In this document: piece by piece, positions 20,035-42,367 of the stretch
Position numbering within the stretch: the stretch's first letter is position 1
Layout: every line of letters starts with the position of its first letter
NCBI RefSeq assembly: GCF_007859635.1
Contig: NZ_CP042306.1
Coordinates: 1,240,001-1,304,000, forward strand
Direction: 5' to 3'
DNA: 64,000 bases
Origin: Sphingomonas panacisoli
GTDB taxonomy: Bacteria; Pseudomonadota; Alphaproteobacteria; Sphingomonadales; Sphingomonadaceae
The notes under the pieces: model-generated
What the model saw: the letters and a program-made list of their open reading frames with translations, nothing else
The model's database searches: none
Told to the model about the DNA's origin: nothing
Position numbers and translations under genes: made by a program

Positions 20035-20078
20035 TATCGAGAGCGCGCTGACTCGGATGGCGCGACGGGAGAGTGACG

Positions 20079-21387: not shown

Positions 21388-22461
21388 ATGGCCGTACTCA
21401 GCGAAGAACAGACGATGCTCCGCGACATGGCGCGCGATTGGACGTCGAACGAAAGCCCCGTGAATGCGTGGCGCAAGGTGCGCGACGCCGATGATGGCGC
21501 GGGGTTCGACGCTTCGGTCTACGGCGAGATGGCGCAAATGGGCTGGTCGGGGATCGTCGTCCCCGAAGCCTATGGCGGGTCCGATTTCGGCTGGCTGAGC
21601 CTCGGCCTGGTGATCGAGGAACTCGGCAAGACCGTGACCGCGAGCCCACTCGCGGCGTCGGCGCTGGCGGCATCGGCGATCGCGCTCGGCGGCAGCGACG
21701 AGCAGAAGCAGAAGTGGCTGCCCGGCATCGCCAGCGGCGAGATCGTCGCGACGCTCGCCGTCGATGAGGGGCCGCGCCACGATCCCGACGCGATCAAGGC
21801 CAGCGTGTCGGGCGGCAAGCTGAGCGGGGCCAAGGCGTTCGTCGCCGAAGGCGACAGCGCCGGTCTGTTCGTGGTCGCGGCGGCCGACGGCCTTTATCTC
21901 GTCGCGGGGGACGCGGCGGGCGTCTCACGCTCGCGGCGCCATCTCACCGATTTCCGTAGCCATGCCGAGGTGAGCTTCGACAGTGCCGATGCCGACAAAC
22001 TGGCGGGCGGTGGCGACGACCTGCTCGGCAAGGTGCTCGACCGCGCGCGCGTGTTGGCGGCGGCGGAGATGCTCGGCATGGCGGGGCAAGCGTTCGAGAC
22101 GACGCTCGCCTACCTCAAGCAGCGCGTCCAGTTCGGCCAGGTGCTTGCGACGTTCCAGGCGCTGCAGCATCGCATGGCGAACCTGTACAGCGACATCGAA
22201 CTGATGCGCTCGGCGGTCGAGGCGGGGCTCGCCGCGATCGACAGTGGCGGCGATACGCGTCAGGCCGCGATCCTCGCCAAGGTGAAAGCCAACGAGGTCG
22301 GGCATCTGATGAGCCGCGAGATGGTCCAGCTGCACGGCGGCATCGGCATGACCGACGAATATGACGCCGGCTTCTACCTGAAGCGGATGCGCGTGCTCGA
22401 GGCGATGTGGGGCAACACCGCCGCGCTGCGCGACCGGTTCGCCACGCTCAACGGCTACTGA
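21388..22461 (+). CDS. Acyl-CoA dehydrogenase, beta-type subunit of a pair
   Basis: This 357-residue acyl-CoA dehydrogenase-fold protein lacks parts of the usual FAD-binding middle domain but keeps the C-terminal helical domain (AYLKQRVQFGQVLATFQALQ and the family-typical LHGGIGMTDEYDAGFYLKR). Such short partners pair with a longer alpha subunit, as with FadE-type heterotetramers of actinobacterial steroid degradation. It follows the alpha gene after 100 bases that hold a palindromic repeat. It is paralogous to 36459-37586. Dependence on the alpha partner is inferred from the family, not shown. Confidence 0.88.
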   Translation: MAVLSEEQTMLRDMARDWTSNESPVNAWRKVRDADDGAGFDASVYGEMAQMGWSGIVVPEAYGGSDFGWLSLGLVIEELGKTVTASPLAASALAASAIALGGSDEQKQKWLPGIASGEIVATLAVDEGPRHDPDAIKASVSGGKLSGAKAFVAEGDSAGLFVVAAADGLYLVAGDAAGVSRSRRHLTDFRSHAEVSFDSADADKLAGGGDDLLGKVLDRARVLAAAEMLGMAGQAFETTLAYLKQRVQFGQVLATFQALQHRMANLYSDIELMRSAVEAGLAAIDSGGDTRQAAILAKVKANEVGHLMSREMVQLHGGIGMTDEYDAGFYLKRMRVLEAMWGNTAALRDRFATLNGY

Positions 22462-22680: not shown

Positions 22681-25600
22681 ATGACCAAGACAAGGTTGCT
22701 CTGCGCGTGCGCGATATCGGTAATGGCGATCGCGGCGGCATCGCCGGCCATGGCGCAGACCGCGCCCGACGCCGACACGGCCGATGCCGGCAAGGACATC
22801 GTCATCACCGGCTCGATCATCAAGGGAACGCCCGAGGATGCCGCGCTGCCGGTCAACGTGATCGGATCCGCCGACCTCGAAAAGCAGGGCTCCCCGTCGG
22901 CGGTCGAATTGCTCAAGGCATTGCCGACCTCAAGCGCCGTACTCGGCGACGCCAACCAGTTCGATAGCCGCTCGCAGGGCGCGGAAGGCATCGCCACTGC
23001 CAACCTTCGCGGCCTCAGCCCGCAGCGTACGCTGGTTCTGCTCAACAACCGCCGCCTGGTGACCGCCGGTAACGGCGTTCCCGCCGTCGACATCAACCTG
23101 ATCCCCGCGGCCGCGATCGGCCGGATCGAAGTGCTGAAGGACGGCGCCGCGGCGACGTACGGTTCGGACGCGATCGCCGGCGTGGTGAACTTCATCACCC
23201 GCACCGACCAGGAAGGCTTCCGCGCGGCGGGCAGCTACAAATTCGTGCGCGGTGCCGATGGCGATATCGACGGGTCGTTGAGCTTCGGCCATGTCGGTGA
23301 CAATTGGCGCTTCCTCGCGGCGGTCAGCTTCTCGAAGCGCGGCGAATTGTCGACGCGCGACCGCAGTTTTGCGGTGCAGCCTTATGCGGTGAACCCGCAG
23401 GGCGGCTGGACCGGCGGCGGCAATCCGGCATCCTATCTCCTCGTCGGGCCCGGCGCCGCCGGCCGCAATACCGCCTACAGCGCGCTGACGCCGGACGCAG
23501 GATGCGCGACCTTGGGCGGTTTCGTCGGCGCCAACAGCCGCTGCTACACGCAATATTCTTCGTTCGATAATCTGGTCGACCTGGAAAAGCGTGGTACGGC
23601 CTTTGTCGATGTCGAGGCCGATCTGACGAACACGATCAAGTTCGAGGTCACGGCGCTCTACGGACGAAGCACGGTCCCGCATTATCTCACGTCGCCGTCC
23701 TATATCCTGACGCAGTTGCCGTCCCTTGCTTCGCTCGGGGGCGTCAATCCCTATCCCTATGCAACGGCGGCCAGCGTGGCGCCGCAGACGGCGGGCTTCT
23801 ACGTACCTGCGACCAACCCGGGCTTCATTTCGTACAAGGCGGCCTATCCGGCCTTGTTCACCGGTGCGGGCGCCATTGCGACCGGCGCGGTATTCCCGCT
23901 GCTGCTGTTCCGCCCGTACATCGCCGGCGGTAACCCCAGCACGTTGGGCGACCTGATGGAAAAGGGGTCGGCGCGCGGCATGCGCAAGTCCGAATCCACG
24001 CGCCTGACCGCCGAACTCAGCGGCAAGTTGGGGACGTTCGACTGGAGCGTGTCGGGGACGTATCACGATTATTATCGCTACACCGACGGCTATGACTCGT
24101 TCGGTGACCGCGTCCAGCTCGCGCTTCGCGGGTTCGGCGGACCCAATTGCACGGGCACAACGCCGGGCGCCAACGGCTGTTTGTGGCTCAATCCGTTCAG
24201 CACGGCGGTATCGGCCGGCGCCGTCAACGGCACGACCAACCCGCTCGGTACCGGACCGGCGAATACCAAGGAATTGACCGACTGGTTCTTCGTGAAGGGG
24301 ACGACGCAGGTCGAATCGCAGCTGTTCGTCGCGGATGCGTCGCTGTCCGGCAGTTCGGGCATCAAGCTGCCCGGTGGCGATATCCAGGTCGGTATCGGCG
24401 CGCAGTATCGCTACAACAAGTTCAGCACGACCTACGGCAACAACAGCAACATCCAGTCCAATCCGTGCCGCGACACACCGATCACCGGCAATACCAACCC
24501 GGCGGCGTGTTCGCCCACCGCACTGGGTCCGGCGGCGGCAAACGGAGCGTACGCGTTCCTGGGAACCGGGCGCAATTCGTACCTGAGGGGCGGCGTCTAC
24601 GCGCTGTTCGCCGAAGCGCAATTGCCGGTGTTCGACACGTTCAACCTGCAGCTTGCCGCGCGATATGAAGATTATGGCGGGGGCGTGGGCCACACGTTCG
24701 ACCCGCAAGTCCGCGCACGGTGGCAGGTCACCGACTGGCTCGCGCTACGCGGCGGCTTCGGCACCACGTTCCGTGCACCGACTTTGGCCAACATCTCGAA
24801 CGGTTTCGTCACCGCGCTGCAGCTGATCGGATCGACCTTCACCCCGGTCGACGTCAACGGCAACCCGAACCTGAAACCCGAAAAATCGAAGAACTATTCG
24901 GGCGGCATCCTGCTCAAGTTCGGCGGCTTCCACGCCAGCGTCGATTATTTCCGCTATGACCTGACGGACGCGATCGTCAGCGATCCGCTGGCGGCGATGG
25001 TGGCGACGTTGTTCCCGGCCGGTGCCGCCAACACCTGCGCGGCCAATCCGACGCTCGCGGCGCGGTTCACCTTCAGCACCGGGGCCTGCACGGCCGCGAC
25101 GACCGTCGCGAACGTGGCGCGCGTCAACACGTTCCTCCAGAACGGCGCGTCGCAGACCAATTCGGGCATCGACTTCAGCGCCGAATATCGGTCGAGCCAG
25201 TTCCTTAACTCGAACCTGCGCTTCGGCATCGGCGTCGATGCGACCTACACGATCAGCAACCGGATCAGCGCGATCTCGGTGGCGGGCGTGCAGGTGGCGA
25301 GCTCGTTCGACGGGGTCGGGCTGCTCAACTATCAGTCGACGCTCTACCCGTTGCCGCAATGGAAGGGTCAGGCGTTCCTCGACCTGGGCGGCGGGCCGGT
25401 CGATGCGCGCGTGACGGTCTATTACACCGACGGGCTGCACGATCAGCGCTTCGACACGAAGACCGGGCCGTTCGCGCTCGACACGTCGCTGTCGGCGGCG
25501 GGCACGGCGTATTACGCAGGCGCGGACATCGGCAATTTCGTGACCGCCGATTTCAACCTGCAGATCAAGCTGCCGGCGAACATCACGCTGACCGCGACGG

Positions 25601-25716
25601 TGATCAACATCTTCGACAAGGATCCACCGTTTGCGCGTGAAGACTACAATTACGAACCGTTCATCGGCAATCCGCTGGGACGGCAGTTCAAGGTCGGTGC
25701 CTCGGTGAAGTTCTGA
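22681..25716 (+). CDS. TonB-dependent receptor (large, plug with GSIIKGTPE)
   Basis: This outer-membrane receptor of 1011 residues has a signal peptide ending at AMAQ (residue 26). A TonB-box-like DIVITGSIIKG follows, then a plug domain (SAVELLKALPTS, NLRGLSPQRTLVLLNNRR, DGAAATYGSDAIAGVVNF) and a 22-stranded barrel ending in VGASVKF. It differs clearly from the sugar-locus receptor at 2438-5116. It lies between an acyl-CoA dehydrogenase pair and an MFS permease inside the acyl-CoA island, so it probably imports the hydrophobic growth substrate of that pathway. A good terminator follows. The ligand is unknown. Confidence 0.93.
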   Translation: MTKTRLLCACAISVMAIAAASPAMAQTAPDADTADAGKDIVITGSIIKGTPEDAALPVNVIGSADLEKQGSPSAVELLKALPTSSAVLGDANQFDSRSQGAEGIATANLRGLSPQRTLVLLNNRRLVTAGNGVPAVDINLIPAAAIGRIEVLKDGAAATYGSDAIAGVVNFITRTDQEGFRAAGSYKFVRGADGDIDGSLSFGHVGDNWRFLAAVSFSKRGELSTRDRSFAVQPYAVNPQGGWTGGGNPASYLLVGPGAAGRNTAYSALTPDAGCATLGGFVGANSRCYTQYSSFDNLVDLEKRGTAFVDVEADLTNTIKFEVTALYGRSTVPHYLTSPSYILTQLPSLASLGGVNPYPYATAASVAPQTAGFYVPATNPGFISYKAAYPALFTGAGAIATGAVFPLLLFRPYIAGGNPSTLGDLMEKGSARGMRKSESTRLTAELSGKLGTFDWSVSGTYHDYYRYTDGYDSFGDRVQLALRGFGGPNCTGTTPGANGCLWLNPFSTAVSAGAVNGTTNPLGTGPANTKELTDWFFVKGTTQVESQLFVADASLSGSSGIKLPGGDIQVGIGAQYRYNKFSTTYGNNSNIQSNPCRDTPITGNTNPAACSPTALGPAAANGAYAFLGTGRNSYLRGGVYALFAEAQLPVFDTFNLQLAARYEDYGGGVGHTFDPQVRARWQVTDWLALRGGFGTTFRAPTLANISNGFVTALQLIGSTFTPVDVNGNPNLKPEKSKNYSGGILLKFGGFHASVDYFRYDLTDAIVSDPLAAMVATLFPAGAANTCAANPTLAARFTFSTGACTAATTVANVARVNTFLQNGASQTNSGIDFSAEYRSSQFLNSNLRFGIGVDATYTISNRISAISVAGVQVASSFDGVGLLNYQSTLYPLPQWKGQAFLDLGGGPVDARVTVYYTDGLHDQRFDTKTGPFALDTSLSAAGTAYYAGADIGNFVTADFNLQIKLPANITLTATVINIFDKDPPFAREDYNYEPFIGNPLGRQFKVGASVKF

Positions 25717-25804: not shown

Positions 25805-27112
25805 GTGTCCTCCCCGACAAGCCTCCCCGAAGTTCAGGCGACCTTCGTCGCCCAGCGCCGCGCGCTGACGCTGCTGTTGCTGACGCTCGCGTATTTTTTC
25901 AGCTACATGGACCGCCAGATCCTCGCGATCCTCAACGAAGATATCATCCGCGATCTGCACTTGAGCGACGCGCAGATGGGGATGCTGGGCGGGCTGGCGT
26001 TCGCGATCTTCTATGCCGGGCTGGGTATTCCGGTTGCGTGGCTCGCCGATCGCAGCAATCGCGTGCGGATCATCGCGATCGCGCTGGCGATCTGGAGCGC
26101 GTTCACCGCCGCGGGCGGCCTCGCGACGAATTTCTGGCAACTGCTCGGCGCGCGGATCGGCGTCGGCATCGGCGAGGCGGGGTCGAGCCCGCCCAGCCAT
26201 TCGATCATCGCCGATCTCTATCCTCCCGAAAAGCGCGCGTCGGCGCTGTCGATCTATTCGCTCGGCGTCGGGCTGGGCGCGGCATTCGGGACGATCATCG
26301 GCGGCGTGGTGGCCACCAAATATGGCTGGCGCGTCGCGATGTACGTGATCGGCCTGCCGGGGTTGCTGCTCGCGCTGATCATCTGGCTGGTCGTACCGGA
26401 GCCCAAGCGCGGGCTGTCCGACGCGCAAGTCGCGATGGAAGACACCAAGCCGACGCTGGCCGACGGGTTCGCGACCTTGTTCAGCAACCGCGCGGCGCTC
26501 CATCTGATCGCCGGGTTCACGCTGACGTCGATGATCGGTTACGGTCACACCGCGTTCGGGCCGGCATATCTGATGCGGTCGTTCGCGTTCACCAAGCTGG
26601 ACATCGCGTTGAAGATCGCGCCGGCGGCGGCGGTGATCCTGGGCATCGCGGCGATCGCCAGCGGCAAACTCGCCGATCGGCTGACGCGCGAGCGCGGTCT
26701 TTACGCCCAATCGACAATGGTCGCGGTGCTCAAGACCTGCGCATTGCCGTTCACGATCACCTACTGCCTGGCGTCGACCACCCAGCTGGCGGTCGGCGCG
26801 TATTTCGTCGCGATCTTCTTCTCGACAGCCTATCTCGGCGTCACCTTCGCATTGATTCAGTCCGAAGCGCCGGTACGGCTACGCGCGACCTGGGCGGCGA
26901 TCATGCTGTTGATCAACAACATGATCGGGCTGGGGATCGGGCCGATGGCGGTGGGCGCGATCAGCGACGCGCTGAAGCCGACCTACGGCACCGAATCCCT
27001 GCGCTACGCGATGTTCACCTTCGCCGCGATCACCCCGTGGGCGATCTTCCATTACTGGCGGGCAGGGGTGCTGTTGAAGCGGAAGTGGGCGGAGCGGCAG
27101 GCGACAATTTAG
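25805..27112 (+). CDS. MFS transporter, spinster-like
   Basis: This 435-residue 12-TM permease starts at GTG. FFSYMDRQILAILNEDI in TM1 and RIGVGIGEAGSSPPSHSIIADLYPPEKRASALS are characteristic of the spinster-like MFS group that is abundant in sphingomonads next to TonB receptors of degradative loci. It follows the receptor after a terminator and probably moves the substrate across the inner membrane. Its 3' end overlaps the 3' end of the convergent TetR gene by four bases. Confidence 0.87.
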   Translation: MSSPTSLPEVQATFVAQRRALTLLLLTLAYFFSYMDRQILAILNEDIIRDLHLSDAQMGMLGGLAFAIFYAGLGIPVAWLADRSNRVRIIAIALAIWSAFTAAGGLATNFWQLLGARIGVGIGEAGSSPPSHSIIADLYPPEKRASALSIYSLGVGLGAAFGTIIGGVVATKYGWRVAMYVIGLPGLLLALIIWLVVPEPKRGLSDAQVAMEDTKPTLADGFATLFSNRAALHLIAGFTLTSMIGYGHTAFGPAYLMRSFAFTKLDIALKIAPAAAVILGIAAIASGKLADRLTRERGLYAQSTMVAVLKTCALPFTITYCLASTTQLAVGAYFVAIFFSTAYLGVTFALIQSEAPVRLRATWAAIMLLINNMIGLGIGPMAVGAISDALKPTYGTESLRYAMFTFAAITPWAIFHYWRAGVLLKRKWAERQATI

Positions 27113-28353
27113 TCCCGCGCCGCGCGATCGTCGAACATGCCGAACGCCAGCGTGGAGGCATACATCGCCACGGCGCGTTCGCGCGGCATGCTGCTCGCCC
27201 ATTTACGCATGTCGAACGCGGCGTTCTGCAGCGCCATCAGCGACTGGCTGACGATCAGCGCATCGACCGCGCGGATCGACCCTTCGGCGGCGCCGTCGGA
27301 CAGCATCCCGGCATAGCGGCGTGCAATGCGGTTCGAGCGGTCGATCATCGCGCTCCGGACCTGACGCGGCAGCCCGGTCAGCGCGGTCGTACGCAATAGC
27401 GGCCCGCGCACCGAGAATTGCACGTCGAGCAAGGTCGCGATGACGCTCGACAGCTTGTGCCACCAATCGCCGCCTTCGTTCTCGCCGGCCTGCTGCGTCT
27501 CGATGATCGTGTCGAAGCTGCGCTTGTAGCATTCGATGACCAAATCGTCCTTGGCATCGAGGTGGTGATAGAAACTGCCCTTGGTGACGTTGAGCTCCGA
27601 CGCGATCCGCTGGACCGACGCGCCGCGATAGCCGAGTTCGTTGATCAGCCGCGTCGCCGCGCGCAGGAACGCCTCGCGCCCCGGCTCGGCTTCTTCATGC
27701 TCGATGTCGAGCATCGCCGGCGACCAGGTCGCGCCCTTGGGTGCGATACCGTGACGGAACATGTCCATCAGCCGCGCCTCGACGCGATCGAACTGGTCGA
27801 GATCGTAGCGATTGATCCATGCTGGGATCCAGAACGTCTCTTCGAGCAGAACATGCGCCCGCGCGCCGTTCAAATCCTTCTGCCGCCGGTCGTCGGGATC
27901 GCCCCATAACGCGCGCGTGCGGCGGAAGATGTCGCGCCAGCCGGCCATCAGGCGGCCGAGCATCGGCTCCTCCATCGCGCGCAAGTCGCTCAGCCCGGCG
28001 AGCGCGCGCTCATCATTTTCGCGGATGCGCGCGAACCGCGCCATGTTGAGCGACAGATATTTGGCGACGCGCGCTTCGGGCGTCGCCTCCGCCTGCGCCT
28101 CGTCGAGCATGTCGCCGAGCGTCAACAGCGTGTGTTCGAAACACGCCTGCGCCAGATCTTCCTTGCGTTTGAAGTAATAAGTGACGCTGGTCGTGTTGAG
28201 CCCGACCCGCCGCGCAACATCGGCGAAAGTCATGCCCTTCGCGCTTTGTTCGTTGATCGCCTCGGATGCCGCCGCCAGGATCGCGTTGCGCTTCGCCCTA
28301 AAACGCTTGGTCCCGGTCGCTTCGTCCAGTTCTACAGTATCGCTTTGCCCCAT
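27109..28353 (-). CDS. TetR-family regulator with two fused HTH domains
   Basis: This 414-residue regulator contains two TetR-type DNA-binding regions: one at about residues 20-66 (MTFADVARRVGLNTTSVTYY) and one at about 230-280 (ASVQRIASELNVTKGSFYHH). Each is followed by a helical domain, so one chain may act as a pseudo-dimer. It is divergent from the ACAD10/11-like gene. The perfect palindrome TTCCGTAACGGAA lies 41 bp upstream of its start, and a second copy lies 10 kb away before an MFS gene, which fits a small regulon for this catabolic island. The ligand, perhaps an acyl-CoA, is unknown. Confidence 0.9.
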   Translation of the reverse strand: MGQSDTVELDEATGTKRFRAKRNAILAAASEAINEQSAKGMTFADVARRVGLNTTSVTYYFKRKEDLAQACFEHTLLTLGDMLDEAQAEATPEARVAKYLSLNMARFARIRENDERALAGLSDLRAMEEPMLGRLMAGWRDIFRRTRALWGDPDDRRQKDLNGARAHVLLEETFWIPAWINRYDLDQFDRVEARLMDMFRHGIAPKGATWSPAMLDIEHEEAEPGREAFLRAATRLINELGYRGASVQRIASELNVTKGSFYHHLDAKDDLVIECYKRSFDTIIETQQAGENEGGDWWHKLSSVIATLLDVQFSVRGPLLRTTALTGLPRQVRSAMIDRSNRIARRYAGMLSDGAAEGSIRAVDALIVSQSLMALQNAAFDMRKWASSMPRERAVAMYASTLAFGMFDDRAARD

Positions 28354-28393: not shown

Positions 28394-28406
28394 TTCCGTA
28401 ACGGAA
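28394..28406. promoter_or_regulatory. 13-bp palindrome TTCCGTAACGGAA, copy 2
   Basis: It is identical to 18376-18388, including the following N-TGCC. It lies between the divergent tandem TetR (start 28353) and the acyl-CoA dehydrogenase (start 28516), which is the usual place for a TetR operator. Confidence 0.65.
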
Positions 28407-28460
28407 TTGCCACTTTTCGAATCTTTTTGTCGGTGCCGCATATCGCATTCAACGGCTTTA

Positions 28461-28478
28461 CCGAAAACGCGGTATGGT
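28461..28478 (-). promoter_or_regulatory. TACCGC-TTTC motif, site 3 (inverted)
   Basis: Read on the minus strand: ACCATACCGCGTTTTCGG. It lies 38-55 bp before the acyl-CoA dehydrogenase start and is related to 18409 and 20016. Confidence 0.35.
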
Positions 28479-28515
28479 CTAGCCGATTACCGGATAGCCA
28501 AAGGAGAGCGATGCG

Positions 28516-29799
28516 ATGGACTTCACATTGAGCGAACGCGAGACCTATTTCCGCGATCGGGTGAAGGCGTTCATCGACAAGGAAATCGCGCCCCGCAACC
28601 ACCTGTATCACGAGCAGTCGCATCAGGGCGATCGCTGGAAAGTCATCCCGGTGATCGAGGAGGTGAAGGCTATCGCCAAGGCGCAGGGGCTGTGGAATTT
28701 CTTCATGCCGCCGCATTCGGGCCAGACGCATGTCGACGACAGTTTCGAATTCGAAGGCACGCAGCTCACCAACCTCGAATACGCCCTGTGCGCGGAGGAG
28801 ATGGGGAAGATCGGCTGGGCGTCCGAATGCTTCAATTGCTCGGCCCCCGACACCGGCAATATGGAGGTGTTTCATCGCTACGGTACGCGCGAGCAGAAAG
28901 AAAAGTGGCTGAAGCCGCTGATGAACGGTGAAATCCGTTCGGCGTTTTTGATGACCGAGCCTGCCGTCGCTTCGTCGGACGCGACCAACATCGAAACCAG
29001 CATGGTCCGCGACGGCGACCATTACGTCATCAACGGCCGCAAATGGTGGTCGTCGGGCGTCGGCGACCCGCGCTGCGCGGTCGCGATCGTGATGGGCAAG
29101 ACCAACCCCGACAACAAGCGGCACCAGCAGCAGAGCCAGATCCTCGTGCCGATGGACGCGCCGGGCGTGAAGATCGAGCGGATGCTGTCGGTCTATGGTT
29201 ACGACCATGCGCCGCACGGCCACGGCCAGGTGCTGCTCGAGAATGTCCGCGTGCCGGTCGAGAACATCCTGCTCGGCGAAGGGCGCGGGTTCGAGATCGC
29301 ACAGGGGCGCCTCGGGCCGGGCCGCATCCACCATTGCATGCGCACGATCGGCACCGCCGAGACGGCGATCGAGGCGATGGCCAAGCGGCTGCTGTCGCGC
29401 GTCGCGTTTGGCAAGCGGATCGCCGACCATTCGATCTGGGAACAGCGCATCGCACGCGCCCGCATCGACATCGAGATGACGCGGTTGCTCTGCCTGAAGG
29501 CTGCCGACATGATGGACAAGGCCGGCAACAAGTCGGCGCAACTCGAAATCGCGATGATCAAGGTGCAGGCGCCCAACATGGCGCTGCAGATCCTCGACGA
29601 CGCGATCCAGGCGCATGGCGGCGGCGGCGTGTCGGACGACTTCCCGCTGGCGCATCAATGGGCCGCGATGCGCACGCTGCGCTTCGCCGACGGGCCGGAC
29701 GAGGTGCACAACCGCGCGATCGCCCGCAACGAATTCGGCAAGTACGGCGACTACAAAGTCGATGTCGCGTCGAGCGGAGATATCGGGGTTTCGCGCTAG
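28516..29799 (+). CDS. Acyl-CoA dehydrogenase, ACAD10/11 type
   Basis: This 427-residue FAD enzyme has the ACAD10/11 signature [15 protein letters not shown] near the C-terminus, where Asp replaces the usual catalytic Glu. Other family segments are [20 protein letters not shown] and [11 protein letters not shown]. In animals this dehydrogenase is fused to an APH-like kinase, and the pair converts 4-hydroxyacyl-CoAs through a phosphorylated intermediate. Here an APH-type kinase gene lies two genes downstream (30965) in the same operon, giving a split version. The gene opens an operon that runs to about 34002 and is divergent from a tandem TetR regulator. The exact acyl chain is not known. Confidence 0.92.
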
Positions 29800-29802
29800 A
29801 CC

Positions 29803-29874
29803 CGTCGCCCCGGCGTAAGGCCGGGGCCGCTGGGTAAAATCACATAGCGGCCCCGGCCTGCGCCGGGGCGACGG
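29803..29874. repeat. Paired palindromic repeat, class A
   Basis: CGTCGCCCCGGC and GCCGGGGCGACGG ends flank a short spacer. It lies between the dehydrogenase and the alcohol dehydrogenase. Its right end runs directly into GGAGAGG, the ribosome site of the next gene. Confidence 0.88.
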
Positions 29875-29882
29875 AGAGGTAA

Positions 29883-30965
29883 GTGAAGGCAGCCGTACTG
29901 TTCGAAGCGAAGAAGCCGCTCGAAATCTGTGATGTCGATGTCGCCAAGCCCGGCCCGCACGAGGTGCTGATCCGCACCGTCGCGTGCGGGGTGTGCCGGT
30001 CGGACCTACATTTCGTCGACGGCGCCTATCCGACGCCGCTGCCCGCGATCCCAGGCCACGAAGCGGCGGGCATCGTCGAAGCGGTCGGCGACGAGGTGCG
30101 CACGGTCAAGGTGGGCGACGCGGTGGTGACGTGTCTCTCCGCCTTTTGCGGGCATTGCGAATTCTGCGTGTCGGGCCGCATGTCGCTATGCATTTCGGCC
30201 GAGGTCCGCCGTCAGCAGGGTGCGGCGCCGCGCCTGTCGATGAATGGCGAGCCGGTCCACCAGATGCTCAACCTGTCGGCCTATGCCGAGATGATGCTGG
30301 TCCACGAGCATGCCTGCGTGCGCGTCGATCCCGACATGCCGCTCGATCGCGCCGCGCTGCTCGGATGCGCGGTGACGACGGGGGCGGGGGCGGTGTTCAA
30401 CGCCAGCCCGGTGACACCGGGCGAGACGGTGTGCGTCGTCGGGTGCGGCGGGATCGGGCTGGCTGCGGTGAATGCAGCGAAGATCGCCGGCGCGGGCAAA
30501 ATCATTGCGCTCGATCCGGTGCCCGAGAAGCGCGCATTGGCCGAAAAGCTCGGCGCAACCCACACATTCGACGCGACCGCCGAGAGCACCGTCCCCGAAG
30601 TGGTCGAACTGACCAAAGGCGGCGTGCATCACGCAATCGAAGCGGTCGGGCGCGAGGCGTCGGCCGACACCGCGGTCAAGGTGCTCAGGCGTGGCGGCAC
30701 AGCGACGATCCTGGGCATGATGCCGCTCGGCAGCAAGGTTGGTCTGTCGGCGCTCGACCTGTTGGGGTCGAAGAAGCTGCAGGGCGGGTTGATGGGCGGC
30801 AACCGCTTCCCGGTCGATATCCCACGGCTGGTCGATTTCTACCTGCGCGGGCTGCTCGATCTCGACACGATCATCGCCGAACGCATGCCGCTCGAGAAGA
30901 TCAACCACGCGTTCGACGAGTTGCGCAAAGGCGACGCCGCGCGCAGCGTGATCGAGTTCAGCTGA
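29883..30965 (+). CDS. Zinc-dependent alcohol dehydrogenase
   Basis: This medium-chain NAD-dependent alcohol dehydrogenase has 360 residues. Catalytic zinc ligands are in CGVCRSDLH (Cys about 38) and GHE. The structural zinc has four Cys in CGHCEFCVSGRMSLC, and the Rossmann motif is VCVVGCGGIGLAAV. It starts at GTG 29883 with GGAGAGG six bases before, and overlaps the APH-kinase start as TGATG. It probably oxidises a primary or secondary alcohol in the same pathway as the ACAD10/11-like enzyme, in the cytoplasm. The substrate is not identifiable. Confidence 0.92.
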   Translation: MKAAVLFEAKKPLEICDVDVAKPGPHEVLIRTVACGVCRSDLHFVDGAYPTPLPAIPGHEAAGIVEAVGDEVRTVKVGDAVVTCLSAFCGHCEFCVSGRMSLCISAEVRRQQGAAPRLSMNGEPVHQMLNLSAYAEMMLVHEHACVRVDPDMPLDRAALLGCAVTTGAGAVFNASPVTPGETVCVVGCGGIGLAAVNAAKIAGAGKIIALDPVPEKRALAEKLGATHTFDATAESTVPEVVELTKGGVHHAIEAVGREASADTAVKVLRRGGTATILGMMPLGSKVGLSALDLLGSKKLQGGLMGGNRFPVDIPRLVDFYLRGLLDLDTIIAERMPLEKINHAFDELRKGDAARSVIEFS

Positions 30966-32029
30966 TGGCCGCGCACCCCGACGACGCTCCCAAGACGATC
31001 GCGGTCGACGAGAAGAACGCGCTCGACCTCGCCAAGCTGACGGCGTGGATGGAAGGGAATGTCGCGGGGTTCGCGGGGCCGTTGAGCTACACCAAGTTCG
31101 CGGGAGGGCAGTCGAACCCGACCTACAAGCTGACCGCCGCGTCGGGCGAGTACGTCCTGCGCCGCAAGCCGTTCGGCAACCTGTTGCCCTCCGCGCACGC
31201 GGTCGACCGCGAGTATAAGGTGATCGCGGGACTTTACCCGACCGGTTTTCCGGTCGCGCGGCCCTATGGCCTGTGCACCGATCCGGCGGTGATCGGCACC
31301 GACTTCTACGTCATGGGGTTCGCCGACGGCCGCAACCTGTGGGACGGGACGCTGCCCGACTACGCGCCCGACGAGCGCACCGGCATCTACAACGCGATGT
31401 GCGACACGCTCGCCGCGCTCCACAACACTGATTACGTCGCGGCCGGGCTCGGCGATTATGGCAAGCCGGGCAATTATTTCGAGCGCCAGGTCGCGCGCTG
31501 GACCAAGCAGTACAAGCTCGCCGAAACCGAACACATGCCGGCGGTCGAGAGCCTGATCGAATATCTGCCGCGGACGCTGCCCGAACAAACGCGGACGTCG
31601 GTCGTCCACGGCGATTATCGCATCGACAACATGATGTTCCACAAGACCGAGAACCGCGTGATCGCGCTGCTCGACTGGGAACTGTCGACGCTCGGCGATC
31701 CGCTGGCGGATTTCAGCTATTTCCTGATGAGCTGGGTGACCAAGCCCGAAGGTCGCTCCGGCGTGATGGGCGTGGCGGGCGGCGACAGCGGCATCCCGAC
31801 GATCGACGACATGGTTGCGCGATACTGCGCCGCGACCGGGCGCGACGGGCTGCCCGACCTCAACTGGTATTTCGCTTATAATTTGTTCCGCCTGACCGGG
31901 ATCGTCCAAGGCATCAAGAAACGCATCGTCGAGGGTACCGCGTCGTCGGCGCAGGCCGAGAAGTCGGCGGCGGGCGTGTACCGGCTGGCCGACGCGGCGT
32001 GGGACTTCGCACAAAAGGCGGGCGCCTGA
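30965..32029 (+). CDS. APH-family kinase (acyl-CoA-hydroxyl kinase type)
   Basis: This 354-residue phosphotransferase of the aminoglycoside phosphotransferase fold is of the kind fused to ACAD10/11 in animals. The ATP-binding KFAGGQSNPTYKL and VLRRKPFGNLLPSAHAVDREY regions, the catalytic loop VVHGDYRIDNMMF and the metal-binding LLDWELSTLGDPLADF are present. Known bacterial relatives include LvaA of the levulinate pathway, which phosphorylates 4-hydroxyvaleryl-CoA. Position next to an ACAD10/11-type dehydrogenase makes phosphorylation of a 3- or 4-hydroxyacyl-CoA more likely than antibiotic resistance. It is translationally coupled to the alcohol dehydrogenase. Confidence 0.9.
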   Translation: MAAHPDDAPKTIAVDEKNALDLAKLTAWMEGNVAGFAGPLSYTKFAGGQSNPTYKLTAASGEYVLRRKPFGNLLPSAHAVDREYKVIAGLYPTGFPVARPYGLCTDPAVIGTDFYVMGFADGRNLWDGTLPDYAPDERTGIYNAMCDTLAALHNTDYVAAGLGDYGKPGNYFERQVARWTKQYKLAETEHMPAVESLIEYLPRTLPEQTRTSVVHGDYRIDNMMFHKTENRVIALLDWELSTLGDPLADFSYFLMSWVTKPEGRSGVMGVAGGDSGIPTIDDMVARYCAATGRDGLPDLNWYFAYNLFRLTGIVQGIKKRIVEGTASSAQAEKSAAGVYRLADAAWDFAQKAGA

Positions 32030-32043
32030 AGAAGGAGAGGGCA

Positions 32044-32808
32044 ATGTCGCTATTCGATCTGACCGGCAAGGTCGCGGTCATCACCGGCTCGTCGAAGGGG
32101 ATCGGCAAGGCGACCGCCTACGAAATGGCGGAGCATGGCGCGAAAGTTGTCATCTCCAGCCGCAAGCAGGATGCGTGCAACGCAGTCGCAGCCGATATCA
32201 ACGGCAAATATGGTGACGGCACCGCGATCGCGGTCGCGGCGAACATATCGAGCAAAGAAGCGCTTCAGAACCTGGTCGACGAGACTCGCGCGGCGTTCGG
32301 GCAGATCGATGTGCTCGTCTGCAACGCCGCGTCGAACCCGTATTACGGCCCGCAGGAGGGGATTAGCGACGAGCAGTTCCGCAAGATTCTCGACAACAAT
32401 ATCGTGTCGAACCACTGGCTGATCACGATGGTCGCGCCGGAGATGCGCGCGCGCCGAGACGGGTCGATCATCATTATCTCCTCGATCGGGGGCCTGCGCG
32501 GGACGCCCGTGATCGGCGCCTATGCGATCTCCAAGGCGGCCGACATGCAACTCGCGCGCAACCTCGCGCACGAATTCGGGCCGGATAACGTTCGCGTGAA
32601 CTGCATCGCCCCAGGGCTAGTCCGTACCGATTTCGCCAAGGTGCTGGTGGACGATCCCAAGCGGCAGGAAGCCGCCAGCCGGTCGGTCCCGCTACGCCGG
32701 ATCGGCGAGCCGGAGGATATCGCCGGCGGCGTGGTGTTCCTGGCGTCGAAGGCGGCGGCGTTCACCACCGGGCAGACGATCGTGATGGATGGGGGCGTGA
32801 CGATTTAG
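32044..32808 (+). CDS. SDR-family oxidoreductase
   Basis: This 254-residue classical SDR has TGSSKGIGKATAYEMAEHGA near residue 12, a CNAAS variant of the NNAG motif, active-site YAISK and RVNCIAPGLVRTDFA. It starts at ATG 32044 after GGAGAGG, 14 bases after the kinase stop. It is related to DHRS4-like/3-oxoacyl reductases and probably interconverts a hydroxyl and an oxo group on a CoA-bound or free intermediate. It belongs to the 28516-34002 operon. Confidence 0.9.
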   Translation: MSLFDLTGKVAVITGSSKGIGKATAYEMAEHGAKVVISSRKQDACNAVAADINGKYGDGTAIAVAANISSKEALQNLVDETRAAFGQIDVLVCNAASNPYYGPQEGISDEQFRKILDNNIVSNHWLITMVAPEMRARRDGSIIIISSIGGLRGTPVIGAYAISKAADMQLARNLAHEFGPDNVRVNCIAPGLVRTDFAKVLVDDPKRQEAASRSVPLRRIGEPEDIAGGVVFLASKAAAFTTGQTIVMDGGVTI

Positions 32809-32816
32809 CCCATTGC

Positions 32817-32889
32817 CGTCACCCCAGCGAACGCTGGGGTCTCTGGCGAGGGAATATTGCATGAGATCCCAGCTTTCGCTGGGATGACG
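32817..32889. repeat. Paired palindromic repeat, class B
   Basis: CGTCACCCCAGCGAACGCTGGGGT and its mirror copy with CCCAGCTTTCGCTGGG flank a short spacer. It fills the gap between two SDR genes of one operon. Confidence 0.88.
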
Positions 32890-32905
32890 GATTGGGAGTT
32901 GGCGG

Positions 32906-33703
32906 ATGCGCTTCAAGGACAAGTCGATCATCGTCACTGGCGCAGGTTCCGGTATCGGCCGCGCCACTGCTCTGCTGTTCGCGCGTGAGGGCGGGAAGGT
33001 CGTGGTCGCCGACAAGACTGACGGTGCCGATGCGACCGCCAAGCTGATCACCGATGCCGGCGGCACCGCGGTCGCGATCCAGATGGACGCTGGGCTGGAG
33101 GAGGACGTGATCCGCACGGTCGACCTCGCGGTGGAAAGCTTCGGCGGGCTCGACATCATCTTCGCCAATGCCGGGATTTCGGGCGGGATGGCGAACATCT
33201 TCGACACCGACGTCGCGCTCATCACCGAAGTGCTGCGCGTGAACCTGGTCGGCCCGTACCTGGCGATCAAGCACGCCGCGCCGAAGATCGCCGAGCGCGG
33301 CGGCGGCGCGATCGTGCTGACCGCCAGCGTGGCGGGCATCCGCTCGGGCGCGGGGTCGCCGGCTTATTCGGCGTCGAAGGCGGGGGTCATCAATCTCGCC
33401 AAGACGTCCGCGCAGCAGCTCTCCGGTTCGAACGTCCGCGTCAACGCGATCTGCCCTGGCCTTACCGAGACCGGCATGACCAAGCCGACCTTTGATTACG
33501 CGCGCGAGGCCGGGAAGATGGACCGCGTCGGCCGCCTCAACCCGCTGCGCCGCGGTGCGCAGCCCGAAGAGCTCGCTGAAGTCGCCGCCTTCCTCGCCAG
33601 CGACGCCGCGAGCTACGTCAACGGCCAAGCTATCGCGGTCGATGGCGGGCTGTCGTCGAGCCACCCCGTGACCAAACAGGAATATGGCCGGACTGCGGTC
33701 TGA
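32906..33703 (+). CDS. SDR-family oxidoreductase
   Basis: This 265-residue SDR has TGAGSGIGRATALLFAREGG, FANAG, active-site YSASK, and RVNAICPGLTETGM near the C-terminus. It is the second SDR of this operon, separated from the first by a palindromic repeat. The stop overlaps the start of the small ABM-domain gene as TGATG. Distinct SDRs in one operon suggest two successive alcohol/ketone steps or different stereochemistry. The substrate is unknown. Confidence 0.9.
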   Translation: MRFKDKSIIVTGAGSGIGRATALLFAREGGKVVVADKTDGADATAKLITDAGGTAVAIQMDAGLEEDVIRTVDLAVESFGGLDIIFANAGISGGMANIFDTDVALITEVLRVNLVGPYLAIKHAAPKIAERGGGAIVLTASVAGIRSGAGSPAYSASKAGVINLAKTSAQQLSGSNVRVNAICPGLTETGMTKPTFDYAREAGKMDRVGRLNPLRRGAQPEELAEVAAFLASDAASYVNGQAIAVDGGLSSSHPVTKQEYGRTAV

Positions 33704-34002
33704 TGCAGCTCATCATGGGGACCATGCGTATTCCCGAGGGCGCGCTGGAAGTAGCGCGCCCGGCGATGGCCGCGATGCTGGCCGCCAGCCGCGCGGAGGA
33801 CGGGTGCCTCGCCTACAATTACGCCCAGGACGTGCTCGACCCGCGTATCATCCATATCAGCGAACGCTGGCGCGACCGCGCCGCGCTCGACGCGCATTTC
33901 AGGACGCCGCACATGGCCGAATGGCGCGCGCAGTTCGGCGCGATCGGCATCACCGACCGCGATCTCCAGCTGTACGAAAGCGACGACGGCCAGCCGATCT
34001 GA
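33703..34002 (+). CDS. ABM-domain protein (putative quinol monooxygenase type)
   Basis: This 99-residue protein of the antibiotic biosynthesis monooxygenase (dimeric alpha-beta barrel) family resembles YgiN. The typical layout is a first strand with LIMGTMRIPEG, AMLAASRAEDGCLAYNYAQDV and SERWRDRAALDAHFRTPHMAEW with its conserved His. Members oxidise quinols or aromatic substrates without cofactor, but many are of unknown function. It is coupled to the SDR upstream and is probably the last gene of the ACAD10/11 operon. Confidence 0.82.
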   Translation: MQLIMGTMRIPEGALEVARPAMAAMLAASRAEDGCLAYNYAQDVLDPRIIHISERWRDRAALDAHFRTPHMAEWRAQFGAIGITDRDLQLYESDDGQPI

Positions 34003-35553: not shown

Positions 35554-36459
35554 TCAGGCGCGGGGCTCGCGCTTCCTGATCAACCCTTCCTGCGCGACGC
35601 TGGCGACCAGTCGGCCGTCGCGCGTGAAGATGCTGCCCCGGTTCATGCCCCGGCCGTGCCCCGCCCACGGGCTGTCCATCGCGTAAAGCAGCCACTCGTC
35701 CGCGCGGAAGTCCTCGTGGAACCACATGGCGTGGTCGAGGCTGGCGGTCTGCATCCCCGGCGTCATCCAATTGACGCCGTGCGGCATCATGCTTGTCGCC
35801 ATAAGGCCCATGTCGCTGGCATAGGCCAGGATCGCGCGATGCATCGCGGTGTCGTCGCCCAGCGGTGCGAGCGCTTTGATCCAGCTATAGGTCACCGGAT
35901 CGCGCTTGGTCGGTGAGAACCAGTTGCGCGGGTGTAAAGGCCGGACGTCGATCGGGCTTTTCCAGTTGAGGAAGCGTTTGCGATGCTCCTCGGGCATGTG
36001 CTGCGACGCTTCGACGCGCAATTCGCTTTCGGATTTCAGCTCTTCGGGCGGCGGAATGTCGGCGGGGAAGGCGTCCTGATGGTGCAGTCCGTCCTCGGCG
36101 ACCTGGAAACTCGCCGCCATGTTGAGGATCGGTTGGCCGTTCTGCGTCGCGATCACGCGACGCGTCGCGAAGCTCTTACCGTCGAAATCGCGCACCACGC
36201 GATAGACGATCGGCAATGCGTCATCGCCGGCGCGCATGAAGTAAGCGTGGAGCGAATGCGCGTCCTTGCCCTCGGCAGATCGTTGCGCAGCTTGCAGCGC
36301 TTGGCCGATTACCTGGCCGCCGAACACACGTCCGCGTCCGCCGGGCAGCTTCATGCCGCGATAGAGATCGGTGTCGAGTTCCTCGACGTCGAGCAAGGTC
36401 ACAAGTCCCGAGACCAGTTCCTCGGGCGTATGCAGCGGGCGATATTCGTCTTCAGCCAT
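35554..36459 (-). CDS. Acyl-CoA thioesterase II (TesB-type)
   Basis: This 301-residue double hot-dog thioesterase has YRGMKLPGGRGRVFGGQVIGQALQA in the first half and the TesB-typical SLDHAMWFHEDFRADEWLLY in the second, including the conserved Asp of the catalytic triad. It hydrolyses acyl-CoAs in the cytoplasm and can relieve CoA trapping. Its ATG 36459 overlaps the stop of the upstream beta-type acyl-CoA dehydrogenase (TGATG), so it is the last gene of a minus-strand operon beginning at the esterase. The 3' end is four bases from the convergent small gene. Confidence 0.92.
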   Translation of the reverse strand: MAEDEYRPLHTPEELVSGLVTLLDVEELDTDLYRGMKLPGGRGRVFGGQVIGQALQAAQRSAEGKDAHSLHAYFMRAGDDALPIVYRVVRDFDGKSFATRRVIATQNGQPILNMAASFQVAEDGLHHQDAFPADIPPPEELKSESELRVEASQHMPEEHRKRFLNWKSPIDVRPLHPRNWFSPTKRDPVTYSWIKALAPLGDDTAMHRAILAYASDMGLMATSMMPHGVNWMTPGMQTASLDHAMWFHEDFRADEWLLYAMDSPWAGHGRGMNRGSIFTRDGRLVASVAQEGLIRKREPRA

Positions 36460-37586
36460 CAATAACCGGCGTTACGCGCGATCTTGTCGGCATGGAAGTT
36501 CGCATCGCCGAACATCTCGGCGAGAACGCGCTGGCGCTTCATGTAGAAACCGATGTCGAATTCGTCGGTCATGCCGATCCCGCCGAACATCTGCACGCCC
36601 TCCTGCACCGCCAACATCGTCGCGAGCCCGGCTTGCGCCTTGGCGACCGACACGGCTTCGTCGGCGCGGTCGGACCCCGTATCGAGCATCTGCGCAGCAC
36701 GGAGCGTGGCGGCGCGGGCGACTTCCATCTCCGAATAGAGATGCGCGGCGCGGTGCTGGAGCGCCTGGAAGGTGCCGATCAGCACGCCGAACTGCTTGCG
36801 CTGCTTGAGATACTCGACCGTCATGTCCATCGCGCCGCCGCCGACGCCGAGTAATTCGGCGGACGCGCCCGTTCGGCCGGCGCGTAGCAGGCGGTTGAGC
36901 GGATCGCGACCGGCATCGACCTCGCCGATCACGGCGTCGGCGGTGACCTCCACGCCGTCGAACTCGAGGCGCGCGGCTAGCGAGGAGTCGGCAAGGCGCT
37001 CGGCTTCGGCGGACAGGCCGGCGGCGCCCTTATCGACCGCGAACAACGTCACGCCGTTCTCATCGTCGGCCGATCCTGCGGTGCGCGCGGCGACGATGAT
37101 CAGGTCGGCGACGTGGCCGTGGCTGACGAACTGCTTCTTGCCGGTCAGCTTGAACCCGTTGCCCGAGCGCTCTGCCTTCAGCGCGACCGAATCGCGGAAC
37201 TTGGCCTGCTCGTCGATCGCCAGCGCTGCAACGGTCTCGCCCGCGACGATGCCGGAGAAGTATTTCGTGGCCTGCGCGGTGCCCTTCAGCGCCTCGACCG
37301 CCGCGACCGCCGTCGCGAGAAAAGGGGAGGGCGACAGGTTGCGGCCGATTTCCTCGAGCACGACGCCCGCCTCGACATGGCCGAGCCCGAGTCCGCCCTG
37401 ATCCTCGCCGATCAGGATGCCGGTGAAGCCCATCTCCGCGAACGATTTCCACAGATCGCGGCTGAACCCGGTCTGGTCGTTCGCGTCACGCAGCGCACGC
37501 ATGTGTTTGACGGGCGCGGAATCGGCGATGAAGTCGCGCGCCGTGTCGCGGAGCATCGTCTGATCTTCGTTGATGTAGAGGGGCAT
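36459..37586 (-). CDS. Acyl-CoA dehydrogenase, beta-type subunit of a pair
   Basis: This 375-residue short acyl-CoA dehydrogenase homologue has INEDQTMLRDTARDF at the N-terminus, VEYLKQRKQFGVLIGTFQALQHR, and the C-terminal FGGIGMTDEFDIGFYMKR. It is paralogous to 21388-22461. It follows its alpha partner (37679-38863) after a class A palindromic repeat and is coupled to the TesB thioesterase by TGATG. Probably both subunits are needed for one FAD enzyme. The substrate is unknown. Confidence 0.9.
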   Translation of the reverse strand: MPLYINEDQTMLRDTARDFIADSAPVKHMRALRDANDQTGFSRDLWKSFAEMGFTGILIGEDQGGLGLGHVEAGVVLEEIGRNLSPSPFLATAVAAVEALKGTAQATKYFSGIVAGETVAALAIDEQAKFRDSVALKAERSGNGFKLTGKKQFVSHGHVADLIIVAARTAGSADDENGVTLFAVDKGAAGLSAEAERLADSSLAARLEFDGVEVTADAVIGEVDAGRDPLNRLLRAGRTGASAELLGVGGGAMDMTVEYLKQRKQFGVLIGTFQALQHRAAHLYSEMEVARAATLRAAQMLDTGSDRADEAVSVAKAQAGLATMLAVQEGVQMFGGIGMTDEFDIGFYMKRQRVLAEMFGDANFHADKIARNAGY

Positions 37587-37678: not shown

Positions 37679-38863
37679 TCATTTGTCCGGCAATTCCAGG
37701 ATCCGCTTCGAAATGATGTTGAGCTGCACCTCGCTGGTCCCGCCCTCGATCGAGTTCGCCTTGGTGCGCAGCCACGCGCGCGGGCCGGCGCCGTTGGTCG
37801 AGCGCTCGCTTTCCCACTCCAGGGCGTCCGAACCGCCTGCCGCCATCATCAGTTCGTGGCGCGACTTGTTCAGTTCGGTGCCGTAATATTTCATCATCGA
37901 CGGCTGGGCGGGGTGCGCCTTGCCGGCTTTGAGGTCGTCGATGAACTTCTCCGACATGGCGTTGAACGCCTTTGCCCGTACCTCGAACAGCGCGATCTGC
38001 GCGCGGAGCAGCGGGTCGGCGAGCGTGCCGTCGTCGGCGGTCCCGATCGTCTTCTTCGCGCCGTCGAGCAGCGGATTGCCGCCCGCCGAGCCGAGCCCCA
38101 TGCCGCTGATCATCTCACGCTCATGGCCGAGCAGATATTTGGCGACGTCCCAACCCTTATTCTCTTCGTAAACAAGGTTTTCCTTGGGAACCTTCACATT
38201 GTCGAAGAAGGTTTCGCAGAACGGCGAATAGCCGGAAATCAGCAGGATCGGCTTGGTCGAGACGCCTTCGGAGGCCATGTCGAACAGCACGAAGCTGATC
38301 CCCGCCTGCTTGACCGACTTGTCGGTGCGGACGAGGCAGAAGATCCAGTCGGCATAGTTGGCGTAGCTGGTCCACACCTTCTGCCCGTTGACGAGATAAT
38401 GGTCGCCCTTGTCCTCGGCCGAAGTCTGCAGGCCCGCGAGGTCCGACCCCGCGCCCGGCTCCGAATAACCCTGGCACCAGCGGATTTCGCCGCGTGCGAT
38501 CTTGGGCAGATGGTCGAGCTTCTGTTCCTCGGTGCCGTACTTCAGCAGCGCCGGGCCGAGCATCGAAATACCGAACGAATTGAGTGGGTTGCGCGCCCGA
38601 ATTCGCTGCATTTCTTCGCGCAGGATCTTGGTCTCGGCCGGCGACAGTCCGCCGCCGCCATATTCCTTCGGCCAGTCGGGCACGGTCCAGCCGCGCGCGC
38701 CCATCTTGTCCATCCATTCCTTCTGCGCCGGTGTCAGCATCGACTGATCGCGGCCGCCCCACACGGCGTCCTTGTCGCTGCGCACTGGCTCGCGCATCTC
38801 GGCGGGGCAATTCGCCTCCAGCCAGGTGCGCGTGTCGGCGCGGAAGGTGTCGAGGTCGGTCAT
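37679..38863 (-). CDS. Acyl-CoA dehydrogenase, alpha-type subunit of a pair
   Basis: This 394-residue FAD-dependent enzyme is clearly paralogous to 20079-21287: WCQGYSEPGAGSDLAGLQ, YLVNGQKVWTSYANYAD, SPFCETFFDNVKVPKENLV. The C-terminal motif is IEGGTSEVQLNIISKRIL, again with Gly at the medium-chain catalytic Glu position and Glu one place earlier. Its start overlaps the amidase stop (ATGA), so amidase, alpha and beta subunits and thioesterase form one operon. It probably introduces a double bond next to a CoA thioester in a branched or cyclic side chain; this is inference from the heteromeric family. Confidence 0.92.
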   Translation of the reverse strand: MTDLDTFRADTRTWLEANCPAEMREPVRSDKDAVWGGRDQSMLTPAQKEWMDKMGARGWTVPDWPKEYGGGGLSPAETKILREEMQRIRARNPLNSFGISMLGPALLKYGTEEQKLDHLPKIARGEIRWCQGYSEPGAGSDLAGLQTSAEDKGDHYLVNGQKVWTSYANYADWIFCLVRTDKSVKQAGISFVLFDMASEGVSTKPILLISGYSPFCETFFDNVKVPKENLVYEENKGWDVAKYLLGHEREMISGMGLGSAGGNPLLDGAKKTIGTADDGTLADPLLRAQIALFEVRAKAFNAMSEKFIDDLKAGKAHPAQPSMMKYYGTELNKSRHELMMAAGGSDALEWESERSTNGAGPRAWLRTKANSIEGGTSEVQLNIISKRILELPDK

Positions 38864-42278: not shown

Positions 42279-42289
42279 TCTCTCCTGTT

Positions 42290-42367
42290 GTGCTCCTGCG
42301 AAAGCAGGAGCCCAGGGCCTCAAGCGACGGCCCATGTGACTCTGGGCTCCTGCTTTCGCAGGAGCAC
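42290..42367. repeat. Paired palindromic repeat, class C
   Basis: GTGCTCCTGCGAAAGCAGGAGC and its mirror copy flank a short spacer. It lies between the esterase gene and the fadJ-like gene of the same strand. Confidence 0.9.

Follow-up and report, generated by a model that had tools for sequence, protein, structure and literature searches.

We analysed an operon of Sphingomonas panacisoli that encodes an acyl-CoA dehydrogenase (ACAD) and an APH-fold kinase, both of the ACAD10/11 type. The operon lies in a stretch of 64,000 nucleotides (contig NZ_CP042306.1, positions 1,240,001 to 1,304,000), called the window throughout, and coordinates refer to this stretch unless stated otherwise. The genome consists of a single contig of 3.40 Mb, and its nearest relatives, judged by the kinase, are mostly labelled Sphingomonas.

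Six genes follow one another on the plus strand between positions 28516 and 34002, in the order ACAD, Zn-dependent alcohol dehydrogenase (Zn-ADH), kinase, two short-chain dehydrogenases/reductases (SDR1 and SDR2) and a small protein of the ABM fold. The ACAD (28516-29799, 427 aa) carries the string FADGPDEVH and matches the ACAD11 structure 8v3u with E 8.7e-132. The Zn-ADH (29883-30965, 360 aa, GTG start) contains PF08240 and PF00107 as well as the GHE and CxxCxxCx7C zinc motifs; its nearest solved relatives are S-(hydroxymethyl)glutathione dehydrogenase and class I ADH. Its stop codon (TGA, 30963-30965) overlaps the start codon of the kinase gene (ATG, 30965-30967) in the string TGATG, and the kinase itself (30965-32029, 354 aa) matches PF01636 with 2e-51. 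SDR1 (32044-32808, 254 aa) is of the DHRS4 type according to its best solved relatives and the trees described below, SDR2 (32906-33703, 265 aa) matches PF13561, and the ABM-fold protein (33703-34002, 99 aa; PF03992, 6.7e-17) is coupled to SDR2 by another TGATG. On the minus strand lies the divergent gene of a tandem TetR regulator (27109-28353), in which two TetR_N domains (PF00440, two stretches) are joined in one chain of 414 aa.

A sequence-only reading of this DNA had already described a dehydrogenase at 28516 with FADGPDEVH, an APH-fold kinase coupled by TGATG to a Zn-ADH, two SDRs and an ABM protein completing the operon, and a tandem TetR placed over it. All of these elements were recovered, the control by the regulator as far as gene layout goes. 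The span given for the system (28394-32029) was too short, as it omits SDR1, SDR2 and the ABM protein that the same text names.

Between the regulator and the ACAD gene we found a conserved inverted repeat, TTTACCGAA-N4-CGGTA (28457-28474, plus strand), with the inner arms TACCG and CGGTA. Of the 64 aligned intergenic regions between TetR and ACAD genes (the window and 63 relatives), 59 have it in exact form, ending 39-56 nt 5' of the ACAD start, and five retain the left arm with CGGGTA as the right one. On the basis of this alignment it is the obvious candidate for, and presumed to be, the operator of the tandem TetR. When up to three mismatches were allowed, the window contained seven matches to the pattern, whereas 100 shuffles gave 1.89 on average and five at most; the six non-exact ones all have three mismatches, and none stands directly before a listed gene. 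Two sites with two mismatches occur in the genome, one inside a TonB-receptor-like gene and one ending 31 nt before a paralogous ACAD gene at locus L002.

The kinase and the dehydrogenase compared with ACAD11

Over 399 aligned positions the window ACAD and mouse ACAD11 share 53.4% identity. In the alignment to 8v3u all five active-site residues R626, R631, H634, R637 and D753 are kept, as R265, R270, H273 and R276 (HCMR motif) and D392 (in ADGPDEVH), and both ADGPDEVH and the residue string around the phosphate-site arginines are identical in the two proteins. Of these ACAD11 residues, three bind the 4-phosphate (R626, H634 and R637), and substituting them disrupts ACAD10/11; R631 is a common feature of ACADs, and D753 acts as the base (PMC12440821; this and the other papers named below are cited from those parts of their texts that were available). 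The seven-position pattern RRH(C or A)MRD was present in all 115 site-covering ACAD hits of at least 200 bits from the loci collected, a count in which overlapping loci were taken separately, so that the hits are not independent genes.

The kinase shares 40.5% identity with mouse ACAD11 over 336 columns, and among solved structures it matches 3dxp (5.5e-116) and ACAD11 (7.6e-74). Its catalytic string HGDYRIDN is intact: D217 and N222 correspond to D220 and N225 of ACAD11, which are catalytic according to two papers on ACAD10/11 (PMC12440821, PMC11342911). The equivalence of residues is fixed by two deposited ACAD11 mutants, 8v3u with HGA (Ala at the kinase Asp) and 8v3v with ANGPDEVH (Asn at the ACAD Asp), because in our alignments they differ at exactly the two catalytic Asp residues. 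The CoA-contacting R176 of the ACAD11 kinase domain is kept as R174 in RQVxxWTKQY (chain index plus 1 gives the number of the paper). The placing of a second CoA-contacting residue, R86 beside the alpha-C Glu, is less certain: a DRE string is conserved, but with the offset used for R176 its Arg does not fit the number of the paper. The kinase is the sole match of its kind in the genome at E 0.001.

Co-occurrence was examined in 299 genomes of Pseudomonadota (kinase at E <=1e-40, ACAD type at E <=1e-100). The kinase was present in 112 genomes and the ACAD in 111; 110 had both, two the kinase only, one the ACAD only and 186 neither. Both genes were therefore found together in 110 of the 113 genomes having either (Fisher 5e-79, a figure that ignores kinship). 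At least 71 of the 110 carry them no more than 10 kb apart, irrespective of strand; adjacency counts in this sample are lower bounds. Among 199 genomes of the family (Sphingomonadaceae; ACAD at E <=1e-60), 163 have the kinase and 159 the ACAD, 159 both, four the kinase only and none the ACAD only. In both samples the pair thus behaves like a single unit.

The surrounding gene order was followed in 80 named relative loci, many of them from closely related species; a locus was counted only if it had enough flank, and a neighbour only if it showed at least 55-60% identity, lay within 1.5-6 kb and stood on the expected side and strand. The ACAD is found upstream in 72/72, the ADH in 71/74, the divergent tandem TetR in 62/70, SDR1 in 63/78 and SDR2 in 75/78. 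As the order is kept across relatives, it is not due to chance. One of the loci, L053, belongs to a record titled 'Arthrobacter sp. TPD3018', whose organism name looks wrong, the Sphingomonas operon being present there at 72-88% protein identity. A further operon type was seen in L218-L223, which come from one genus, probably Pseudomonas-like; these loci have a kinase of 30-33% identity, an ACAD with a HAMR motif and SDRs close by.

Gene order, catalytic residues, co-occurrence and the conserved repeat are established by these data. They support, at the level of the family, the assignment of the pair to the split ACAD10/11 (LvaA/LvaC-like) systems and the chemistry predicted from it.

SDR1 and mammalian DHRS4

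DHRS4 is a mammalian peroxisomal carbonyl reductase, whose physiological role is, to our knowledge, held to be unsettled. The best solved relatives of SDR1 are two DHRS4 chains (7e-54 and 3.5e-53), the next entry following at 1.9e-42; a further chain with the name DHRS4, 5ojg, has only 4.7e-40 and ranks behind three other entries. In the back-search with the DHRS4 structure 2zat, SDR1 came first of 21 SDR matches in the genome (169 bits, the next match having 130 and SDR2 125). SDR1 and DHRS4 are about 41% identical.

Two trees, drawn solely from kinase loci and the window genome and with bootstrap not fully settled in either, place SDR1, DHRS4 and the kinase-adjacent SDRs of several lineages in one clade (98/87 and 97/95). 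DHRS4 is the sister of SDR1 in both (98/90 and 96/86). The kinase-adjacent members come from L162, L163, L177-L179 and L196, to which the second tree adds L219-L221, and the other SDRs of the genome that were entered fall outside. In the 299-genome sample the kinase is present in 64 of the 67 genomes with an SDR1-type gene, at most 10 kb away in at least 36 of these 64; of the 86 places of SDR1-type genes, at least 40 are within 10 kb of the kinase and at least 26 within 3 kb, counts to which SDR-rich genomes may contribute. Because the tree sampling is biased to kinase loci, the link between SDR1, DHRS4 and the kinase is a lead and no proof, and the DHRS4 clade could also contain SDRs unlinked to the kinase.

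LvaD, the SDR of the levulinate (lva) operon, reduces levulinyl-CoA to 4-hydroxyvaleryl-CoA (as cited in PMC6692424), and by analogy SDR1 would reduce 4-oxo forms. SDR1, and perhaps DHRS4, may in this way interconvert 4-oxo and 4-hydroxyacyl groups upstream of the kinase. LvaD itself was considered as an enzyme of the DHRS4 clade and rejected, as the SDR of an lva-like locus (L226) falls outside the clade.

A bolder idea is that DHRS4 is the missing partner of ACAD11, interconverting 4-oxo and 4-hydroxyacyl groups before the kinase step, and that the bacterial operon represents the unfused ancestor of a three-enzyme peroxisomal route. We regard this as doubtful, though as a real possibility. 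Our literature search, including the available part of PMC8919083, found no publication that joins DHRS4 functionally with ACAD11 or with 4-oxo acids.

Linked genes, proposed route and rival explanations

Downstream of the operon a convergent cluster occupies the minus strand. It comprises a TesB-type acyl-CoA thioesterase (35554-36462, PF02551), the small subunit-like (36459-37586) and large subunit-like (37679-38863) members of a presumed heteromeric ACAD pair, and a FadB-type enoyl-CoA hydratase/3-hydroxyacyl-CoA dehydrogenase (open reading frame, ORF, 40251-42335, start probably ATG 42278; PF00378, PF02737, PF00725). The ACAD pair resembles PimD (TIGR03203 pimD_small, 223.9 bits, below the cut-off of 652.7) and PimC (TIGR03204 pimC_large, 296.4 bits, below the cut-off of 623.85). 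In the relatives TesB lies downstream within 8 kb in 44/72, and the PimC-like large-subunit ACAD downstream within 8 kb in 43/72 and upstream in 8/69. Locus L196, from another family of the same taxonomic order, contains within about 14 kb the kinase, an SDR, TesB, both PimC/PimD-like ACADs and an ACAD11-type ACAD; three further genes there were read from their sequences as encoding a CoA ligase, a thiolase and a MaoC-like protein. L196 and the linked TesB and PimC/PimD-like genes suggest a full beta-oxidation set around the kinase-ACAD pair, and the convergent cluster presumably acts in the same pathway as the operon.

Other features of the surroundings were noted. Upstream, on the plus strand, two further ACAD genes (20073-21287 and 21388-22461) are followed by a gene read as a TonB-dependent receptor (22681-25716); with a gene read as an MFS-like transporter (25805-27112), they form a possible uptake and catabolism set beside the operon. 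GC-rich palindromic repeats, similar by eye to repetitive extragenic palindromes (REP), lie at 29800-29882 (between the ACAD and ADH genes), 32811-32890 and 40180-40240. The one near 40200 is inside the 5' end of an amidase frame (38860-40251, minus strand), whose ATG overlaps the FadB stop codon. An ORF of 402 aa without a Pfam match (43662-44870, minus strand) adjoins a gene for a beta-lactamase-fold hydrolase (42370-43590).

We consider it probable that the kinase and the ACAD constitute a two-gene split ACAD10/11 system that turns 4-hydroxyacyl-CoA into 2-enoyl-CoA via the 4-phosphate, with the other genes acting as proposed here. The kinase would phosphorylate the 4-hydroxyl of 4-hydroxyacyl-CoA, and the ACAD, using FAD as a hydride store that returns its hydride, would expel the phosphate to give 2-enoyl-CoA. 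This product would then be oxidised by an ordinary hydratase and dehydrogenase, e.g. the linked FadB. SDR1, as a DHRS4-type reductase, most likely makes the 4-hydroxy group from the 4-oxo form, while the Zn-ADH and SDR2 may act on further hydroxyl groups of the chain. The tandem TetR would repress the operon via TTTACCGAA-N4-CGGTA until the acyl-CoA or the hydroxy acid is present. What is inferred is that these two proteins carry out the reactions, on which class of substrate they act, what SDR1, the ADH and SDR2 contribute and how the operon is regulated. For ACAD10/11 it is reported that the 4-hydroxyl of the CoA ester is phosphorylated and that the phosphate is lost in an FAD-dependent reaction, without an outside electron acceptor, to yield 2-enoyl-CoA (PMC12440821, PMC11342911). 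The sequence-only reading had proposed a hydroxy- or oxo-acid pathway with phosphate as the leaving group; residues and co-occurrence bear this out at the level of family and chemistry, but the idea is no longer open, as it had already been published.

As to the substrates, our guess is in-chain plant hydroxy fatty acids whose shortening brings the hydroxyl to the 4-position, either of the ricinoleate type or cutin 10,16-dihydroxypalmitate. When shortened, the latter would become a 4-hydroxy acid that also bears a primary alcohol, on which the ADH could act. Deleting an ACAD11-like gene abolishes growth of the yeast R. toruloides on ricinoleic acid (PMC5922974), and microbes fed with ricinoleate make 4-OH-C10 (PMC12440821). 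Oleate-derived 10-hydroxystearate is not favoured as a source, the genome having no oleate hydratase match at E 1e-30. In the family this enzyme occurs in 13 of the 199 genomes, 11 of which have the kinase, compared with 163/199 overall, so no link between oleate hydratase and the kinase is indicated.

A number of observations weigh against the route proposed above. The co-occurrence figures are uncorrected for shared ancestry, in 39 of the 110 genomes kinase and ACAD are separated by more than 10 kb, sit on different contigs or are unlisted, and six of the 159 family ACADs match at the level of paralogues only (E 1e-65 to 1e-71). The phosphate-site motif is also present in a second, kinase-free ACAD of the same genome (L002:1348-2640, that is G000:C1:1803127-1804419), which has the residues RRHAMRD, is 37-41% identical and has no kinase adjoining; the motif alone is consequently no proof of a partnership with a kinase, and the genome's one kinase might work with both ACADs. 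SDR1 is missing within 4 kb in 15/78 relatives, and for up to 46 of the 86 SDR1-type places no kinase lies within 10 kb. All SDRs obtained from the kinase loci L175, L176, L218, L223, L225 and L226 lie outside the DHRS4 clade, as do further SDRs of L177-L179, L196, L220 and L221. Beside the kinase of 20 loci outside the family we saw no Zn-ADH, while SDR1-like genes recur there, and the role of the Zn-ADH may therefore be local (L224 has an ADH-like gene of 34% about 3.6 kb from the kinase, and L196 a weak ADH fragment). No oleate hydratase match was obtained in the genome at E 1e-30. With up to three mismatches the whole genome contains 24 matches to the operator pattern and the reversed control likewise 24. 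A wider regulon for the pattern was rejected, the genome being at control level and both sites with two mismatches fitting chance.

Three other explanations have to be set against the split ACAD10/11 system. The locus might be a levulinate operon proper, in which the SDR reduces levulinyl-CoA and the kinase and ACAD process 4-hydroxyvaleryl-CoA; the sequence-only reading had mentioned the related LvaA kinase, which acts in levulinate use in Pseudomonas. The same two enzyme types and SDRs are present, and PMC6692424 cites a report of lvaABCD homologues from Alpha-, Beta- and Gammaproteobacteria. There is no room for lvaB, as the kinase and ADH genes overlap and only 14 nt separate the kinase from SDR1, although a levulinate cluster of P. 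citronellolis likewise has no lvaB homologue (PMC6692424). An acyl-CoA ligase (lvaE) is missing among the six genes, the nearest annotated AMP-binding gene being at 13128-14690. The regulator is a tandem TetR and not of the PrpR type, to which LvaR presumably belongs. As a stand-in for the P. putida operon we used L226 (G540), called lva-like from its gene content and partly from its regulator, which is of the PrpR type by eye and divergent from the kinase gene. The window kinase is 29% and the window ACAD 32% identical to their counterparts there, both being nearer to ACAD11, and the L226 SDR is outside the SDR1/DHRS4 clade. This identity argument is weakened by the L226 ACAD being 32-34% identical to the window ACAD and to mouse ACAD11, as LvaC is reported to have 62% and 56% to ACAD10/11 (PMC11342911) and L226 may not be a close relative of LvaC. 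The missing lvaB and ligase, the TetR regulator and the identity of about 30% to L226 nevertheless disfavour levulinate use, which we hold to be quite unlikely.

The pair could also serve the breakdown of bulky cyclic or branched acids (terpenoids or a steroid side chain), working with the heteromeric PimC/PimD-like ACADs and taking off a hydroxyl from the ring or the side chain. The orthologous PimC/PimD-like genes stay linked in spite of their changed position, as shown by the upstream and downstream counts and by L196 given above. The best solved relatives of the large subunit are 4x28 and 6wy8/6wy9, which we take to be steroid side-chain ACADs, and the upstream region contains two further ACAD genes and a transporter gene matching MFS. 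On the other hand, no steroid or terpenoid ring-opening genes were found among the 30 window ORFs scanned with Pfam, and the presence of the kinase in 163/199 genomes of the family is more in keeping with a general lipid route than with a rare substrate; we consider such a pathway unlikely. That the kinase acts on aminoglycosides or other small molecules and is merely sited in a lipid operon would agree with its APH fold (PF01636). It reaches only 23.4 bits with the NCBIfam APH(3') model (cut-off 205), has the ACAD11 kinase domain among its best relatives and is accompanied by the ACAD in nearly all genomes of the phylum sample that have either gene, which makes this explanation extremely improbable.

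Comparison with known systems

The split ACAD10/11 system proposed here shares its kinase and ACAD parts with mammalian ACAD10 and ACAD11 through homology, and the five ACAD active-site residues (PMC12440821) are conserved. In animals both domains are fused in one polypeptide, whereas in the window they are encoded by two genes with the Zn-ADH between them. Unlike ACAD10, the system has no HAD domain, and it lies in an operon headed by a divergent tandem TetR.

The separation of kinase and ACAD is shared with the LvaA/LvaC orthologues of Burkholderia (PMC11342911), a split pair that could replace each ACAD10 domain in vitro and resembles ACAD10 more closely than do its P. putida counterparts. 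Four loci taken as Burkholderiales-like (L164-L167) gave no Zn-ADH or SDR match beside the kinase. Fungi, too, have separate APH and ACAD proteins (PMC8919083). Published work reports phosphate elimination by LvaA/LvaC, ACAD10/11 and the Burkholderia pair (PMC12440821, PMC11342911). The chemistry and the bacterial two-protein split are already in print, and the pair described here adds another case. A search of the literature by title found no publication on an operon such as this one.

With the P. putida lva operon, said to have been described by Rand et al. in 2017, the locus has the kinase, the ACAD and an SDR in common, and the HCMR motif occurs in the lva-like L226 as well; lvaB, the LvaE ligase and the PrpR-type LvaR of that operon are missing here.

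What our analysis adds to these known cases is that kinase and ACAD genes are paired almost without exception across a sample of the phylum, that Sphingomonadaceae keep an operon with a clear operator candidate, and that ACAD10/11-type kinases have a link to the SDR clade of mammalian DHRS4; this link is the part worth following. It raises for human DHRS4 the questions whether the enzyme acts on 4-oxo or 4-hydroxyacyl-CoA, and whether 4-hydroxy and 4-oxo acids build up when it is lost. DHRS4 is the best solved relative of SDR1 and its reciprocal best match in the genome, and it stands in one clade with kinase-linked SDRs; the gene adjoining the bacterial kinase points in this way to a possible unrecognised partner enzyme in animals.

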